From Pseudomonas sp. ACM7 (GTDB taxonomy: Bacteria; Pseudomonadota; Gammaproteobacteria; Pseudomonadales; Pseudomonadaceae): DNA of 60,305 bases. Under the pieces are notes generated by a model, which saw nothing but the letters and a program-made list of their open reading frames with translations, was not told where the DNA came from and did not search any database. Numbering within the stretch: position 1 is the stretch's first letter; each line of letters begins with the position of its first letter. The stretch is from the NCBI RefSeq assembly GCF_004136015.1, contig NZ_CP024866.1, positions 3,841,030 through 3,901,334 of the forward strand, read 5' to 3'. Of the stretch, positions 4,409-42,049 are shown piece by piece. The translations under genes and the position numbers were made by a program.

Positions 4409-4545
4409 CGTGTCATAGGTCTTGTCAAACCCTGCGATCCGTCTGATGCGGACGCTTGGGTCGCATACGCCATGGTCTGTTGACCAAGTATGTTGACGTA
4501 TGCCGGACGAGCATGGCGCTCGTGGGAGACTACTCCCCTAGGACG
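4409..4545 (-). promoter_or_regulatory. yybP-ykoY (manganese) riboswitch aptamer
   Basis: Read on the minus strand, the leader contains the family's conserved blocks in order: GGGGAGTAG (4538 to 4530), CGTCAACATACTT (complement of about 4486-4498), and CAAGACCTATGA (about 4425 to 4414). The closing helix TAGG/CCTA joins the two ends. These match the invariant loops of RF00080, which bind Mn2+. It precedes a predicted Mn exporter, the usual target. The predicted transcription start from the -10 at 4552-4557 falls at the aptamer's 5' end. Confidence 0.88.
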
Positions 4546-4551
4546 GAGCGG

Positions 4552-22587: not shown

Positions 22588-22616
22588 AAAAAAGGCCTGC
22601 ATTGCAGGCCTTTTTT
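22588..22616. terminator. Bidirectional terminator between zapE and asparaginase
   Basis: AAAAAAGGCCTGC and GCAGGCCTTTTTT enclose a 3-nt loop. It serves both the plus-strand zapE transcript and the minus-strand catabolic cluster. Confidence 0.93.
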
Positions 22617-22628
22617 GTGCGCTGTGTG

Positions 22629-23609
22629 TCAGTTTTGAACGAGAAAGCGCGCCACTTCATCTTGTCGCTGGCAGCCGACGAGCAGCCACAGCAGGATTCT
22701 GGCTTTGCGTGGACAGAGAAATCCAGCCATCAATGCACCTTTACTGATCAGGTCCATCTCGCTGCCAATAAATCCGTAGGTCGATTGAGCCGTGGAGCCG
22801 GAACCTGTCCGGGTGGCAACGATGACAGGGATTTTTCTGGCGATGGTTTCAATTACATCTGTCCAGCTCGCGCCAACGTGTCCTGCACCGAAACCCGCAA
22901 TCACCAGTCCGTCGTAACCCAGTTCTAGGATGTTCTCGATTAACAGGGTATCGGCGCAAAGTGACGCTTCCAGCAGGGCAATCTTCTGTGTGGTCAGCTG
23001 GGGCAGCGGCAGGACCCTGCGCTGGACTGGCAGGCGCAGATAGTTGACGGTGTTTTCCATCAGCATGCCGACAGGACCAACGATGGGGGAGGAAAACGCC
23101 TGCAATGCTAATGAATCGGTTTTGCGGACGGCGTTCGCTGAATGAATCTGTCCGTTCATCACCACGTGAACGCCTCGATGACGGCTGCTTTCAGCCAGTG
23201 CAACCCGGCAAGCATCCAGCAGATTCGCCGGACCATCGGCCCCTGCCTGGGCTGCCGAACGCATGGCGCCGGTCAGGACCAACGGCTCGTCGTTGTCCCA
23301 CAAATAGTCAAAAAATGTGGCGGTTTCCTCGAGGGTGTCTGTGCCTTGAGTGATGACAACACCCACCGCACCTTGTCTGATTTGAACATTAGCCCAGGAA
23401 AGGACGCTCAGCAAAAAGTCGAAATCCAGTGAGGCACTGGGCAACAGTCCGAGCGTTTCTACGGTGACCTGTGCCAAGGTCGCCAACTCTGGCACCGAGG
23501 CCAGCAGGGTTTCGCCGCTGACGGTCGGGATCACCCCTTCGCCGGTGTTGCTGGCTTGCATGCTCACGGTGCCGCCGAGCGCCGCAATGGCCAGTTTGGG
23601 CAGGTCCAT
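22629..23609 (-). CDS. L-asparaginase/glutaminase-family amidohydrolase
   Basis: Threonine amidohydrolase, 326 aa. Start is MDLPKLAIAALGGTVSM at 23609, with GAGG six bases upstream. The two catalytic threonines are Thr14 in 'LGGTVSM' and Thr90 in 'ITQGTDTLEET'; the third block is 'VLTGAMRSAAQAGADGPANL'. No signal peptide, so a cytosolic enzyme. It is the last gene of the 22.6-29.1 kb cluster, 78 bp after the frameshifted membrane gene. In this setting it may deamidate an amide other than asparagine, but the sequence does not show which. Confidence 0.88.
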   Translation of the reverse strand: MDLPKLAIAALGGTVSMQASNTGEGVIPTVSGETLLASVPELATLAQVTVETLGLLPSASLDFDFLLSVLSWANVQIRQGAVGVVITQGTDTLEETATFFDYLWDNDEPLVLTGAMRSAAQAGADGPANLLDACRVALAESSRHRGVHVVMNGQIHSANAVRKTDSLALQAFSSPIVGPVGMLMENTVNYLRLPVQRRVLPLPQLTTQKIALLEASLCADTLLIENILELGYDGLVIAGFGAGHVGASWTDVIETIARKIPVIVATRTGSGSTAQSTYGFIGSEMDLISKGALMAGFLCPRKARILLWLLVGCQRQDEVARFLVQN

Positions 23610-23687
23610 GTGATACCTCATTAGCTTGTGATGAGAAGTGGCTGTATCCGGAATTGAGTCCGTGATACAGCCCAATCGTGACGTTCG

Positions 23688-24895
23688 TCAGTTGGCTACC
23701 AGCAGTCCGATAAACGGAATGATCAGCAACGTACTAATGGCCATGGCCAGTACATTGCCGATGAAACCGTGCATGTCGGCCGGCAACCGCTTAGCAATCG
23801 CGCACGCCAGCGGTGGCGCAATCAGTGCCCCCAGCAGTGCGCTTGAGGCTATGACCTGCCAGCTGCCACCGTACGTCAGAACGGCCGCGGGAACGACTGA
23901 CACCAATGGAACATAGGTGGGATACCAGCCGCGCAATATCCATTGTCGACGCCAGATCGCTACCCCTAACGCCGAAGTCAACGCCTGCGCGGCGATCAGT
24001 TGGGGCAGCAAGCCCGTGCCATACACTGGGCTCGTCGGGTTCAAGGTGTAAGCCAGCAAGGCTCCCGCGATCAAGCCGAGACTGGCCCATTCATTGCCGA
24101 AGAACGGCGCTTCCGAAAGTCAGCCAACACCCGACGTAGACTCCACACGACACCATAGTCGGGCGTTTTGGTTATGGCGGGTGCGGGCACAGGGGCGGAC
24201 GGCTTCTCGGGTCGATCGGAGTTCACCAGGCTCGGCAGGTAACGGCAGAGCAGAAAAGCGCCGACACTGGCGACCGCCATGCCCGAGACATTGCCAATCA
24301 CGGCTGGTAATCCGAGGGGATTGCAGACGTAATTGACGATCAGCAAGCACATCGGGGTGACGAACACGGCGCCCATGATTGCGCCATTGATCGTGACCTT
24401 CCAGCCGCCACCGAACATCAGCACCATCGCCGCCGGCAACGAAACAAAGGCGGCAAACGTGGGTTGCCAACTGGTGGCCGTGACCGTCCAGCCCCACAGC
24501 AGGTTACTCAGCAACAGCCCAAGCAATGAGCTGGTGACGAGCCACGGCCATAATCCGCTGCCGTAGCAAATGGTAAAGCCTTGCCAGGCTTTTCCCGTTC
24601 GATTCGCCCAGTAGGCCAGATAGGCGCCTGCAAGCAGCCCGATCGAAGCGAACTCATGTTTGTAGAACGCCACCTCGCTGATGTCTCCCAGGACCCAACG
24701 CAGCCAGGCACTCGGTTCCGGGAGGCTCGATACCATGTGACTGTAGTCTGGCCAATGCGCTGACCAGGATGACCGGTAGGTGAATGAAAGCCAGATGATC
24801 AACAGTGCCGCGCCGAGCATCAGCCAGATGACCGCCGTATCCAGCGGCGTCCTGGCGACAAGCCGGTTTTGCGGTTTTTCGTTTGTGGTGTCCAT
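23688..24895 (-). pseudogene. Internally duplicated membrane protein, broken by a one-base frameshift
   Basis: The upstream frame (24895 to 24071, start MDTTNEKPQNRLVART) and downstream frame (to the stop at 23688) are two halves of one protein. Restoring one T in the minus-strand run GACTTTCGG (24118-24116) joins them into a 402-aa product. The halves are homologous: 'SEVAFYKHEFASIGLLAGAY' in the first aligns with 'SEAPFFGNEWASLGLIAGAL' across the repaired joint, and 'MFGGGWKV' with 'TYGGSWQV'. Each half has about four to five membrane helices. Family not recognised; a substrate channel or permease is a guess. It could be a sequencing error rather than a true pseudogene. It starts 16 bp after the amidase stop. 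Confidence 0.7.
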
Positions 24896-24911
24896 CAGTC
24901 ATGCCCCCTTA

Positions 24912-25799
24912 TCAGCGCGGCAGACAAGGGTGCTGGGTGTAGCCGAGCATTTGATCGTAGAGATCGGCTCGACGATCGCGATGCAAATCGTTCAAGTTGT
25001 TCCAGATGGGCGCGCTGCGCGAGCTGGTCAGGTCGATGTCGGCAAACAGGATCTCCTGCTTGTCCGCTGAAGCCACCTGGCCAATCGGCCAGCCATTGGT
25101 GCCCGCGATCAGCGAACAACCCAGGTAACGTGCACCTCGCTCTTCGCCGATCCGGCTCGCCGCCGCAATAAACACATTATTGACGTGAGCCGCCGTCATC
25201 GTCAGGTACGACGCCATGCACTTGCCGGCGTCATCGAACAGGGGTGGCGGGGTCCAGACCCAGTTGTTCAGGCTGCAAATAATGTCGGCGCCTTGCTGGC
25301 TCAAAATGCGCGGTACTTCCGGGAACCAGATATCCCAGCAGATCAACATCCCTATACGACCGATTGGGGTGTCGAAAACCGGGAAGCCTAGATCGCCCGG
25401 CGTGAACCACAATTTTTCCAGATTCCATAAATGTGCTTTTCGGTACTTGCCGATGAAGCCGTCAGGCCCGACAAGAACGCCGGTGTTGAACAGCTGCATG
25501 CCGTCGCGCTCCGTCAAACCGGCGACCAGATAAACCTTGTGCTGGCGGGCAAAGTCCATCCAGCTCTGCACGCTCGGCCCGCTGGGAACGGCCTCCGAAT
25601 GATCGAACGCATCCTGCCGGGTTTTAAAGAAGTAACCTGTGCTTGAAAGCTCGGGCAGGACGATGAGATTCGCACCGTCATTTGCCGCTTCCAACGCTAA
25701 TTCCAGGCTGTTACGCAGATTTGCTTCGCGATTTTGCCTGCCGACTTGTGGATCGAATTGCACGACTGCTACACGAACAGGACTTGTTGGCTCGCTCAT
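24912..25799 (-). CDS. Carbon-nitrogen hydrolase (nitrilase-superfamily amidase)
   Basis: Cytosolic amide hydrolase, 295 aa, with the nitrilase-superfamily triad Glu50 ('VLPELSSTG'), Lys121 ('GKYRKAHLW') and Cys154 ('LICWDIWFPE'). Overall form resembles aliphatic amidases, N-carbamoylputrescine amidases and the 5-aminopentanamidase DavA. The start at 25799 (MSEPTSPVRVAVVQF) follows AGAGG. Because it sits in an operon with an amino-acid 2-monooxygenase-like flavoenzyme, the likely substrate is the amide that enzyme would form, giving acid plus ammonia. Confidence 0.9.
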   Translation of the reverse strand: MSEPTSPVRVAVVQFDPQVGRQNREANLRNSLELALEAANDGANLIVLPELSSTGYFFKTRQDAFDHSEAVPSGPSVQSWMDFARQHKVYLVAGLTERDGMQLFNTGVLVGPDGFIGKYRKAHLWNLEKLWFTPGDLGFPVFDTPIGRIGMLICWDIWFPEVPRILSQQGADIICSLNNWVWTPPPLFDDAGKCMASYLTMTAAHVNNVFIAAASRIGEERGARYLGCSLIAGTNGWPIGQVASADKQEILFADIDLTSSRSAPIWNNLNDLHRDRRADLYDQMLGYTQHPCLPR

Positions 25800-25877
25800 T
25801 CCGATGACCTCTTTTTATTGTTATTCACGCTGTTTAATTGCGTGCTTATGAGAGTCGAATCGGCGAGAACGTGTAAG

Positions 25878-25976
25878 TCAGCTATTTCCGTTTAGGGTGT
25901 AGTCCGTATCCCAAGATGACTGCGCGAGGCGCTTGGCAGGAGGGTCGCCAAAGTAGAGCCAATGCACGTCGTGCAT
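25878..25976 (-). CDS. Possible 32-aa small ORF between oxidase and amidase
   Basis: ATG at 25976, TGA ending at 25878, peptide starting MHDVHWLYFGDPPAKRL and ending DYTLNGNS. Third positions are mostly G or C, as in real genes here. GGAG is only two bases before the ATG, which is too close for a normal ribosome site. A 12-bp hairpin (25956-25981) overlaps the start. It may be a real small protein in the operon or chance. Confidence 0.3.
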   Translation of the reverse strand: MHDVHWLYFGDPPAKRLAQSSWDTDYTLNGNS

Positions 25977-25981
25977 GGCTC
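25956..25981 (-). other. Hairpin after the flavoenzyme gene
   Basis: GAGCCA-TGCACG pairs with CGTGCA-TTGGCTC (12 bp, one bulged base), 18 bp after the flavoenzyme stop on the minus strand. It is not followed by a U-tract; it may be a processing or attenuation stem within the operon. Confidence 0.45.
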
Positions 25982-25998
25982 CAGAGCAAGGAAGCTAA

Positions 25999-27945
25999 TC
26001 AGGTTCTGACGTTATAGTGCGGATAGTCGCTCATGGAAAAACCGCCATGGAAGGCTGCGCCGGTTTTGTTGCAGATATGAATGACCGCATCGACGGCGCC
26101 CCGAAAGCACGGCTCGGTCCAGCCAGCATCGACTGAAAACGACTCCCCGGAAAAATACAGACCTGAAACATGCGCGAAGTCCCGGTTGTACTTCATCAGG
26201 CTGACGGCGTCGTAGTAGGTGCCGGGTCGGTATAACTTTGCACAACCCAGCGCATTTTTATCGGTGATCCAGCGTTGGACCACGGCTTGATCCAGGGCAA
26301 TGTAGGGAGTGATTTTCTCCTGGATATTGGCGGCGTTCATGAGGATCCGGTCCAGCTCTTTGGCGCACTTGTTCACCAGTTCCTTGTCGGTGAATGAGGC
26401 GAGTTTGGTAGCGTCGTCCTCCCATGTGTAACTTAAAAGGATGCAGTCATAACTGTAGCTATCGTTGTAGCGGTAGGTGTAGACGTCGTGGATAAAACTG
26501 TCAGTGACGATGGCTTGCGGGATTTTTCTGTTTTTCGAAAGGAAGGATTTTTTTAACGGTGCGAAGACTTTGCAACTGGTTTCCCAGTGCGCGGTTTTAT
26601 AGGCATTGATCGTCTCGAACGGCAGCATCTGTGGCGTGAAGTTTTCAAGCTTGATGCGAGTTTCGATCAGCCAGGAGGGAAGGGTCATGATGACCGAATC
26701 AAAGTCATCGTAGTGCTCCTGGATTTGCTCGGGTTGACTATGTTTCGAGTTGTAGTAGACGCGTGTTTTCTGGTTCGTCAGTTTTTTAAGTTTTGTAACG
26801 GATGAGTCCATGAGCAAACCGTTGTTTCTTTCCTGGCAGTGTTCGTAGAAGGACTTTCCGGTTTCGTCGGTTTTCATGAACAGCAGGCATTCGTCCAACG
26901 CTGCAAGACCGATGTAGCGGGGCCTGTCGAAACTCAGCCCCGTCGAGTCAAAAACGGCTTCGCTGTGCAGGCAGGGTGAATCCAGCGGATCGCCAATTGA
27001 GTCGACCCGACCATGGATCAATTGCAGTTGGCTGCTGAATCCAAAAATGGCAGTGCGCAGAGGATAAAGGGAGCAGACATCGTAAAAGGCTCCCCAACTA
27101 CCGTCGCCGATGCCAATGGCATAGAAGATCGCGGACTCCTGCGCGGACATTCCCATTCCGCCAAAGTCCCCCGGTGAGCGTTCATCCCAAGCTTGCAGGG
27201 CGGGCATGCTGACCAGATCGCGAAACGAAACGCTCTCGTATTTTTCGACGATAGCAGCCCACATGGCTTCCCATGCCTGACTGGCGTAAACCTCTGCGAC
27301 GTGCCGGGTCATGCGATCGGCAAAGGCCTTCCACTTTGCATAAACCTTTTGCAGTTCTTCACCGGGAGGTGGTGTCTGGCCATCTTCATTTTTCCAGATC
27401 AGCATCTGCGGAGTCGGTCCGCCGCCCATGCTGCCCTCTCGCAGATAGATACCGGTCGAAGTGACCCACTGGCTTCCGGGATTGGCAAAATCTGAAAACG
27501 CCAGGTCGAATGCCTTGGCGTAGTAAGCCATCAGCGACCGGCCCTCTGTCGGTGACTCGTCCGCCCGGTTGAAGAAGGGCATGCGCATGGCCCCCATTTC
27601 AAACGGTGTATGACTCATCGCCGAGTTCGGGCTTCCAGGGACGGTCAGGTGTCTGCCGCCTATGCGTCTGGATTGTTCTATGAGGGTGATATGGGTGAAC
27701 CCGCAACGATAAAGCTCTCTGGCGGCCGTCAGTCCGGTGACGCCGGCGCCAATAATGCAAATTTTATGTTGTGGGTCAGTTGCCTTGGCGATGCCGTTTT
27801 CCTGTTCAACCAATGCGCGATAGTCGAAGCACAAATCTGGCGGGTTGGGGAAACGGGCCTTCCACTTGTTTTCCGCCGAGCGTTTTGGGCGAGCGGCATC
27901 CTTCGTGGCATAGGAGGGGTAGTTGTAGCTTGATCCGATAGTCAC
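25999..27945 (-). CDS. FAD-dependent amine oxidase, amino-acid 2-monooxygenase-like
   Basis: Flavoenzyme of 648 aa. The dinucleotide-binding loop 'IIGAGVTGLTAAREL' (glycines 66, 68, 71) lies after about 60 extra N-terminal residues. The next family block 'FEMGAMRMPFF' has Arg121 where amino-acid oxidases and tryptophan/lysine/phenylalanine 2-monooxygenases bind the substrate carboxylate. The C-terminal FAD block is 'YFSGESFSVDAGWTEPCFRG', with the aromatic cage tryptophan. Such enzymes oxidatively decarboxylate an amino acid to an amide, or simply deaminate it. The start is GTG at 27945, about eight bases after AGGGAAG. Codon use is visibly more AT-rich than in flanking core genes. The substrate is unknown. 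Confidence 0.85.
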   Translation of the reverse strand: MTIGSSYNYPSYATKDAARPKRSAENKWKARFPNPPDLCFDYRALVEQENGIAKATDPQHKICIIGAGVTGLTAARELYRCGFTHITLIEQSRRIGGRHLTVPGSPNSAMSHTPFEMGAMRMPFFNRADESPTEGRSLMAYYAKAFDLAFSDFANPGSQWVTSTGIYLREGSMGGGPTPQMLIWKNEDGQTPPPGEELQKVYAKWKAFADRMTRHVAEVYASQAWEAMWAAIVEKYESVSFRDLVSMPALQAWDERSPGDFGGMGMSAQESAIFYAIGIGDGSWGAFYDVCSLYPLRTAIFGFSSQLQLIHGRVDSIGDPLDSPCLHSEAVFDSTGLSFDRPRYIGLAALDECLLFMKTDETGKSFYEHCQERNNGLLMDSSVTKLKKLTNQKTRVYYNSKHSQPEQIQEHYDDFDSVIMTLPSWLIETRIKLENFTPQMLPFETINAYKTAHWETSCKVFAPLKKSFLSKNRKIPQAIVTDSFIHDVYTYRYNDSYSYDCILLSYTWEDDATKLASFTDKELVNKCAKELDRILMNAANIQEKITPYIALDQAVVQRWITDKNALGCAKLYRPGTYYDAVSLMKYNRDFAHVSGLYFSGESFSVDAGWTEPCFRGAVDAVIHICNKTGAAFHGGFSMSDYPHYNVRT

Positions 27946-28100
27946 TGTTGATCTTCCCTGATGGTGTTTTCAGGGACGATGTTGAGGTTCTGAACGCGCA
28001 GCGTATAGGAGACAAGTAAGGCTCGCAGATACTCTTTATTCGTTTTTTAGCGTGGGAAAAGACCAGCAGGGCTCCGGCTAAGGATCCCTGCGGTATTGGG

Positions 28101-29096
28101 CTACGCCGCCTGCTGGAACTGCTGCCGATACTGGTTCGGCGACAATTCCGTGTGCTGGCGAAACAACCGCGCGAAGAAGCTCGCATCGTCGTAACCGACT
28201 TCATAGCTGATGGTCTTGATGCTCTTGCGGCTGCCGGACAGCAAGCCTTTGGCCGTCTCGATACGCAGTCGTTGCAGGTAATGCAGCGGCTTGTCGCCGG
28301 TGGCGGTCTGGAAGCGCCGCATGAAATTGCGGATGCTCATGCCGTGTTCGCGAGCCACGTCTTCGAAGCGGAATTTGTCGGCAAAGTGTTCTTCGAGCCA
28401 GTGCTGGATCTGCAGGATGATCACATCCTGGTGCAGCTTCTGACCGCCGAAACCGATTCGTCCTGGCGAGTAGCTGCGCTGCACTTCATAAAGAATGTCC
28501 CGCGCCACGGCCTGGGACACGTTGGCGCCGCAGAAGCGTTCGATCAGGTAAATGTAAAGGTCGCAGGCCGAGGTGGTTCCGCCAGCACAGTACAGGTTGT
28601 CGGCATCGGTCAGGTGCTTGTCCTGATTGAGCTGAACCCGTGGGAAGCGTTCGGCAAACGCATTGAAGAAACGCCAGTAAGTGGTCGCTTCCTTGCCGTC
28701 GAGCAGCCCGGCCTCGGCCAGCCAGAACACCCCGGTGGCTTCGCCGCAGAGTACTGCGCCGCGAGCATGTTGCTGGCGCAGCCAGGGCAGGACCTGTGGA
28801 TAACGTTGGCAGAGGGTGTCGAAATCGTCCCAGAACGCTGGAAGGACAATGATGTCGGCGTTTTCCAGGCCGCCGTCCACCGGCATGATTACATCGCTGA
28901 AGCTGTTTACCGGTTTGCCGTCGGGGCTGACCAGGCGGGTTTCGAACGCCGGAGTCAGGCCTTGGCCCAGTTGTTTGCCGTAACGCAGGCTGGCCAGGTG
29001 GAAGAAATCCTTGGCTTGCATGAGGGTGGAAGCGAAAACCCGGTCGATAGCCAGGATGCTGACGCGCCGCAAGGGCGTGGAGACTTGGTTAGACAT
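28101..29096 (-). CDS. GlxA-type AraC-family transcriptional regulator
   Basis: Regulator of 331 aa with an N-terminal DJ-1/PfpI (class I glutamine amidotransferase-like) sensor domain, residues about 10-200, and a C-terminal AraC double HTH. The HTH runs from 'FRFEDVAREHGMSIRNFMRR' to 'ISYEVGYDDASFFARLFRQH'. In the sensor the nucleophile region reads 'GAVLCGEATGVFWLAEAGLL', so a cysteine is present. In Pseudomonas such proteins commonly control catabolism of amino acids or quaternary amines. It lies 155 bp upstream of the flavoenzyme on the same strand and most likely controls that cluster. Confidence 0.9.
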   Translation of the reverse strand: MSNQVSTPLRRVSILAIDRVFASTLMQAKDFFHLASLRYGKQLGQGLTPAFETRLVSPDGKPVNSFSDVIMPVDGGLENADIIVLPAFWDDFDTLCQRYPQVLPWLRQQHARGAVLCGEATGVFWLAEAGLLDGKEATTYWRFFNAFAERFPRVQLNQDKHLTDADNLYCAGGTTSACDLYIYLIERFCGANVSQAVARDILYEVQRSYSPGRIGFGGQKLHQDVIILQIQHWLEEHFADKFRFEDVAREHGMSIRNFMRRFQTATGDKPLHYLQRLRIETAKGLLSGSRKSIKTISYEVGYDDASFFARLFRQHTELSPNQYRQQFQQAA

Positions 29097-41441: not shown

Positions 41442-41795
41442 GGAGAGTCGATCGGACAGTCGCTGCCCTCTATGAAAATTAGGGGGGGGAGGAAAGTCCG
41501 GGCTCCATAGGGCGAAGTGCCAGGTAATGCCTGGGAGGCGTGAGCCTACGGAAAGTGCCACAGAAAATAACCGCCTAAGCGCTTCGGCGCCGGTAAGGGT
41601 GAAAAGGTGCGGTAAGAGCGCACCGCACGTCTGGCAACAGTTCGTGGCTAGGTAAACCCCACTTGGAGCAAGACCAAATAGGGTCCCAAGGCGTGGCCCG
41701 CGCTGGGACCGGGTAGGTTGCTAAAGATGTCCAGTGATGGCCATCGTAGACGAATGACTGTTCAAGACAGAACCCGGCTTACAGATCGACTCTCC
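41442..41795 (+). ncRNA. rnpB: RNase P RNA (M1 RNA, bacterial class A)
   Basis: Catalytic RNA that removes the 5' leader from pre-tRNAs. The ends pair: GGAGAGTCGATC at 41442 with GATCGACTCTCC ending at 41795 (P1). Universal blocks are present in order: GAGGAAAGTCCGGGCTCC (about 41489), GCCACAGAAAATAACCGCC (about 41557), GGTAAGGGTGAAAAGGTGCG, and the 3' AGACAGAACCCGGCTTACAG. It is just downstream of rsmI and ahead of the dcw cluster, the common Pseudomonas order. Ends are good to within a few bases. Confidence 0.97.
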
Positions 41796-42049
41796 ACCTT
41801 TTTCCCCCTCCCTGCTTTAATCATTGAGCAGGGCGCCTGTAGTAGCAATTTCCCTCCTTACAGAATCAACAGCAGAAGCACTTTCCTAATACCGAAAAAA
41901 TCTTACTCTTAACAAATTACTTTAACTTTCGAACGCAGCCTTCTGTGCTGATTCAAGTTATTGAGCAGGACGACAGGTCAGATTCTGGCTACCCCTCCTT
42001 TTACACTCCTAAATCTCAGTTCTGTAAGGGTTTTCCTTTAATCCGCGCC

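Follow-up and report, generated by a model that had tools for sequence, protein, structure and literature searches.

Two described pathways of the amino-acid-to-amide type are closest to the locus reported here. In DavB-DavA of Pseudomonas, lysine 2-monooxygenase acts with 5-aminovaleramidase, i.e. a flavoenzyme with a nitrilase-type amidase, while in IaaM-IaaH the tryptophan 2-monooxygenase (TMO, PDB 4iv9) is accompanied by an amidase-signature enzyme. Furthermore, an amidase is paired with a channel in AmiE-AmiS of Pseudomonas aeruginosa. According to two reports, the auxin route of strain UW4 was assigned to an annotated tryptophan 2-monooxygenase (PMC3596284), and, of ten strains studied together, P. 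chlororaphis 30-84 and O6 were recorded to have both iaaM and iaaH (PMC3390384). Here, we analysed a 60,305-nt stretch (hereafter, the window) of the genome of Pseudomonas sp. ACM7 (6.6 Mb, one contig), which encodes a flavin amino-acid oxidase/monooxygenase-like enzyme (Mao), a nitrilase-superfamily amidase (Nit), a membrane protein (Mem) and an asparaginase-fold amidohydrolase (Asp).

We propose, giving this reading an even chance of being right, that mao-nit-mem, with or without asp, constitute a mobile accessory operon for the conversion of a neutral amino acid via an amide to an acid and ammonia, served by a urea transporter (UT)-like channel. The evidence comprises gene content, linkage, insertion site, active-site residues as aligned, an internal repeat and a modelled fold. 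The parts belong to known superfamilies and the amino-acid-to-amide logic is itself known; a search of the open-access literature found no description of this gene set. If right, the proposal would add a further amino-acid-to-amide route of Pseudomonas beside those for lysine and tryptophan, and its membrane partner would tie the urea-transporter fold to amide metabolism.

Linkage and distribution of the accessory unit

For the comparison, 63 named Pseudomonas loci were chosen by mao, whose identity to the window gene was 62-98%. In every one of them, mao is succeeded by nit and mem with constant order and strand; this linkage suggests one common compound for the enzymes Mao and Nit. The gene asp was found in 52 of the 63, and the adjacent regulatory gene reg lies inside the locus in 49; it should be added that L080 ends inside mem, leaving the state of asp unreadable, as is that of reg in L072, L075, L076, L080 and L088, which start less than 450 bases before mao. 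The earlier note on this DNA had proposed a five-gene order including reg, and had staked its interpretation on the genes occurring together elsewhere. Such co-occurrence was found for mao-nit-mem, so the genes and their association stand, with a different composition: mao, nit, mem and often asp.

The gene mao, or a piece of it, was detected at E 1e-30 in 100 of 398 Pseudomonas genomes. Among the 63 loci, the remaining ones without reg have mao-nit-mem adjoining different genes, so that the unit has evidently sat in several places. In a search outside the genus, the flavoenzyme had, besides its own genome, a match in one of 368 genomes of a class-wide sample, a protein much closer to TMO, with no nitrilase evident by eye among its neighbours. 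Among plasmids, 163 records matched the flavoenzyme, all below 60% identity, of which 121 came from Agrobacterium, some labelled iaaM. The search with Mem returned 2 of 293 genomes of the order and 2 of 398 of the phylum, both times the ACM7 genome and G135, both Pseudomonas.

The flavoenzyme Mao

Mao has the Amino_oxidase FAD fold of the amide-forming 2-monooxygenases (PF01593, 98 bits). In the profile search against PDB, TMO was the best match (E 2.3e-34), followed by a reconstructed vertebrate-type L-amino-acid oxidase (LAAO; 3e-24) and then a DavB-type enzyme (2e-17); L-phenylalanine oxidase/2-monooxygenase of Pseudomonas sp. P-501 (PAO, PDB 2yr4) was not among the matches listed (60 of 74, E 1e-3). 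Structural-model matching was led by the DavB-type 3we0 (score 24.6), with 4iv9 fourth; TMO scored 22.2, LAAO 20.1, PAO 19.1 and arginine oxidase 16.2.

Residues were compared in an alignment of 35 Mao members, with roles taken from PMC5832979; all Mao positions named below are invariant across the 35. Arg102, Tyr416, Trp418 and Trp516 correspond to R121, Y506, W508 and W609 of Mao, so that the carboxylate-binding Arg and Tyr (R121, Y506) and the cage Trp are shared with DavB, to which Mao is only 23% identical. At the remaining positions, Trp235 is W284, Asp238 is F287, Phe473 is A569, Ala515 is G608, Gln258 is L307 and Cys254 is F303. The replacement of Asp238 by F287, together with other pocket residues, points to a neutral substrate and against lysine, and we consider the substrate of Mao to be probably a neutral, likely hydrophobic, amino acid.

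A lysine-type enzyme was thus rejected, since every member has Phe in place of the Asp at the DavB pocket ceiling, the residue that holds the charged side chain there. The wider alternative, a basic amino-acid route like DavB-DavA acting on lysine, ornithine or arginine, is very improbable for the same reason. It would share with DavB-DavA the fold and the logic of a flavoenzyme plus a nitrilase-type amidase, and the best model match is of DavB type, but the ACM7 genome already has a DavB-type gene, with a nit homologue (31-33% identical) at the place of davA. The present unit also differs from DavB-DavA in having mem and often asp.

TMO being the best profile match, one may suppose instead an auxin (indole-3-acetamide) or phenylacetamide route, with Mao as a diverged Trp or Phe 2-monooxygenase and the nitrilase-type enzyme replacing IaaH. 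The amide logic and the pocket glycine G608, as in TMO and PAO, would fit, and several Mao members are labelled tryptophan 2-monooxygenase in databases. Nevertheless, we hold this route to be unlikely: Mao is only 27% identical to TMO, its W284, where TMO has Phe244, makes for a narrower pocket, Ala replaces the cage Phe, and the conserved unit has no amidase-signature enzyme, Nit being nitrilase-type and in that different from IaaH. If our proposal is right, a tryptophan 2-monooxygenase label on a genome is not alone a proof of auxin production.

The phylogenetic tree was built with 15 rows (12 of the 35 aligned Mao, DavB, TMO and one TMO relative, L147). The 12 Mao rows have a long stem of their own, separate from the other three, and TMO pairs with L147 to the exclusion of Mao, though with support of just 92/90. 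With just three outside rows, each of them on a very long branch, the tree shows the separateness of Mao and not its exact place; within the known enzyme family, Mao forms an unplaced branch. For LAAO and PAO, the profile and model scores given above take the place of tree rows.

The hydrolases Nit and Asp

Intact nit was present in all 63 loci. Nit carries the CN_hydrolase domain, and E50, K121 and C154, which we take to be the nitrilase Glu-Lys-Cys catalytic triad, occur in 64 of 64 sequences. Its best PDB matches were 3ivz, 1j31, 6ypa and 7ovg, presumably archaeal or thermophile amidases and nitrilases. Ten further nit-like stretches of 28-38% identity to nit were found in the ACM7 genome, among them the homologue next to the DavB-type gene.

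As regards asp, stop codons occupy the stretch upstream of ATG 23609 in several relatives; the gene therefore most likely starts there (326 aa) and not as the longer, 348-aa open reading frame (ORF), and from this ATG it is open in 51 of the 52 loci carrying it. Asp has the asparaginase fold (PF00710 and PF17763), and T36, T112, D113 and K185 (numbered in the 348-aa ORF), presumably active-site residues, are invariant in the 44 sequences compared, i.e. the window and 43 of the 52 loci, the other 9 being left out due to a start-codon artefact. Its paralogues in the ACM7 genome are 33% and 26% identical.

The membrane protein Mem

The two ORFs of the window read in the earlier note as a duplicated membrane-protein gene are spanned by a single ORF of ~400 codons in 60 of the 63 relatives (L037 and L046 are broken and L080 runs off its contig). 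What had appeared as duplication is a pair of internal repeats, as the halves of Mem from L068 align to each other. The model of this intact protein resembles urea transporters (SLC14, PF03253), which likewise consist of two internal repeats. Taken together, 30 Mem members matched 8 families (E up to 10, HMMER filters on), and PF03253 was not one of these. The T-x-P-F motif, with at least two copies in 15 of 18 UTs and one in the other 3, is present in 1 of 30 Mem sequences, whereas N-V-x-x-M-A is found twice in all 30 and in none of the 18 UTs. Judging from the modelled fold, Mem is probably a channel of urea-transporter type whose pore motif is another one.

Some databases name this protein a ThrE exporter. 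PF06738 was matched weakly by 24 of 30 members (best E 8.5e-4), one member, with 16.7 bits, falling short of the cut-off (26.3), and no profile similarity of Mem to one ThrE protein was seen; this candidate was rejected.

The nitrilase-superfamily amidase beside a small-solute channel recalls AmiE-AmiS, but the channel there is of another family and no amino-acid monooxygenase is included. In PMC10392092, UreI/AmiS is described as a channel family separate from UT.

Selection and decay

Median pairwise dN/dS was 0.06-0.16 per gene (usable pairs among 60 drawn: mao 8, nit 36, mem 33, asp 36). Together with the constant order and strand of mao-nit-mem in the 63 loci, these values speak against a chance arrangement. 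mao is intact in 54 loci and broken in the other 9, and in a number of the 100 mao-positive genomes it exists only as fragments; in the window, the frame of mem is lost near 24,100. These losses could be taken as marks of a decaying gene island with no present function, an explanation we find hardly credible in the face of purifying selection among intact copies and of nit and mem being intact in 63 and 60 of the 63 loci, respectively. The broken mao genes and the broken mem of the window indicate that the system is dispensable, and a function that is under selection but dispensable fits best. In ACM7 itself, the frame break suggests that Mem is probably inactive and the transport step probably lost, a sequencing error being a possible source of the break.

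Proposed pathway

In the proposed operon, Mao would act on an L-amino acid that is neutral and probably hydrophobic, and by oxidation and decarboxylation yield the amide with one carbon less, RCH(NH3+)COO- + O2 -> RCONH2 + CO2 + H2O, and Nit would hydrolyse this amide to an acid and ammonia. The order, Mao then Nit, follows the chemistry of the families as in DavB-DavA and IaaM-IaaH, and amide formation by Mao is deemed probable from its partner amidase. Mem may conduct a pathway solute that is small and neutral, either ammonia or the amide, the latter inwards or outwards, and Asp, in most but not all loci, might remove a further amide nitrogen or feed the route. From the data given above we infer which reaction Mao catalyses and on which class of substrate, as well as which solute the channel passes and in which direction. 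A bolder version, which we regard as doubtful, would have Mem as a new UT-fold channel family unrecognisable by sequence, its pore tuned to the organic amide of the partner monooxygenase, and Mao acting on a substrate used by no known 2-monooxygenase.

Several results weigh against the proposed pathway. The active-site cage of known enzymes has two aromatic residues; in Mao, W609 is kept and the Phe473/476 position is A569, a change which is unusual. Together with L307 at the position of Gln258, it means that Mao might simply oxidise its substrate or catalyse yet another reaction, and W284 is as in DavB, as opposed to Phe in TMO and PAO. The Mao model is poor round the active site (mean pLDDT 63), and the residue assignments therefore depend on alignment at 23-27% identity. 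As to Mem, the model is middling (pLDDT 70), the best Foldseek E-value was 1.7e-3, no sequence similarity to urea transporters was detected (hhalign probability 2.9%) and proteins that have the UT fold in common need not have a solute in common. The broken copies of mao and mem described above are to be added here.

The missing cage aromatic also suits a further alternative, in which Mao would be an L-amino-acid oxidase that releases H2O2, while the amidases belong to a neighbouring route, for instance one that scavenges amides from the environment by way of the channel. The reconstructed LAAO ranked second in the profile search, above the DavB-type enzyme, and an amidase with a channel would alone make a sensible scavenging pair. 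We think it improbable, as the unbroken mao-nit linkage suggests one shared compound and the closest structural-model matches are amide-forming enzymes.

Insertion site and regulation

The gene reg, seen in the earlier note as a cluster member, is genus-core: at E 1e-100 it was found in 197 of 199 Pseudomonas genomes. zapE and reg are direct neighbours in five cluster-free sites, four in genomes with no mao match and one in G135, which has mao elsewhere, and in all four of these sites that were read a like terminator palindrome lies between the two genes. Thus, the site appears to have received, between the terminator and reg, an insertion of ~5.5 kb with asp, mem, nit and mao. The two-way terminator of the earlier note does exist, being read directly from the sequence (a consensus terminator scan of the window did not list it), but it belongs to the zapE/reg pair, and the idea of a boundary brought along by the cluster is not supported. 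Control of the operon by reg is possible, even though reg is outside the accessory unit.

The more AT-rich codon use previously noted was borne out, third-position GC being 0.645-0.724 in asp, mem, nit and mao versus 0.741-0.800 in trpS, zapE, reg, acad and akr (names of zapE, acad, akr, trpS and rplM were assigned from translations). Against a clean contrast stands core rplM with 0.608.

REP-like inverted repeats were observed in the cluster-free zapE-reg gap of L178 and L181, and may mark the route of operon arrival. In L048, from Pseudomonas fluorescens FW300-N2E3, and in L082, an opposite-strand stretch between reg and mao, 26-27% identical over nearly all of reg, is perhaps a second regulator.

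Layout of the locus and other features of the window

The genes reg, mao, nit, mem (two ORFs) and asp lie between zapE and the acyl-CoA dehydrogenase gene acad (Table 1). The ORFs and their Amino_oxidase, CN_hydrolase, Asparaginase and AraC/DJ-1 domains agree with the earlier note, whose interpretation is upheld in part, and not for reg membership, the duplicated gene and the terminator.

Table 1. Positions of the operon genes and of adjoining features in the window
Feature	Position	Strand	Description
mao	25999..27945	-	Flavin amino-acid oxidase/monooxygenase-like enzyme, 648 aa, GTG start; PF01593 98 bits
nit	24912..25799	-	Nitrilase-superfamily amidase, 295 aa; PF00795 182 bits
mem 5' part	24071..24895	-	First repeat of membrane protein; out of frame with 3' part in the window
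mem 3' part	23688..24074	-	Second repeat of the same membrane protein
asp	22629..23609	-	Asparaginase-fold amidohydrolase, 326 aa from ATG (most likely start); accessory; PF00710 + PF17763
reg	28101..29096	-	GlxA-type AraC regulator; genus-core neighbour, outside accessory unit
terminator	22588..22616	both directions	Of core zapE/reg convergent pair; read directly in the window

Elsewhere in the window, a manganese riboswitch yybP-ykoY (4427-4551, minus strand), the bacterial RNase P RNA (41444-41797, plus strand) and the start of a group II intron (RF02001, 60147-60305), ended by the window edge, were identified.
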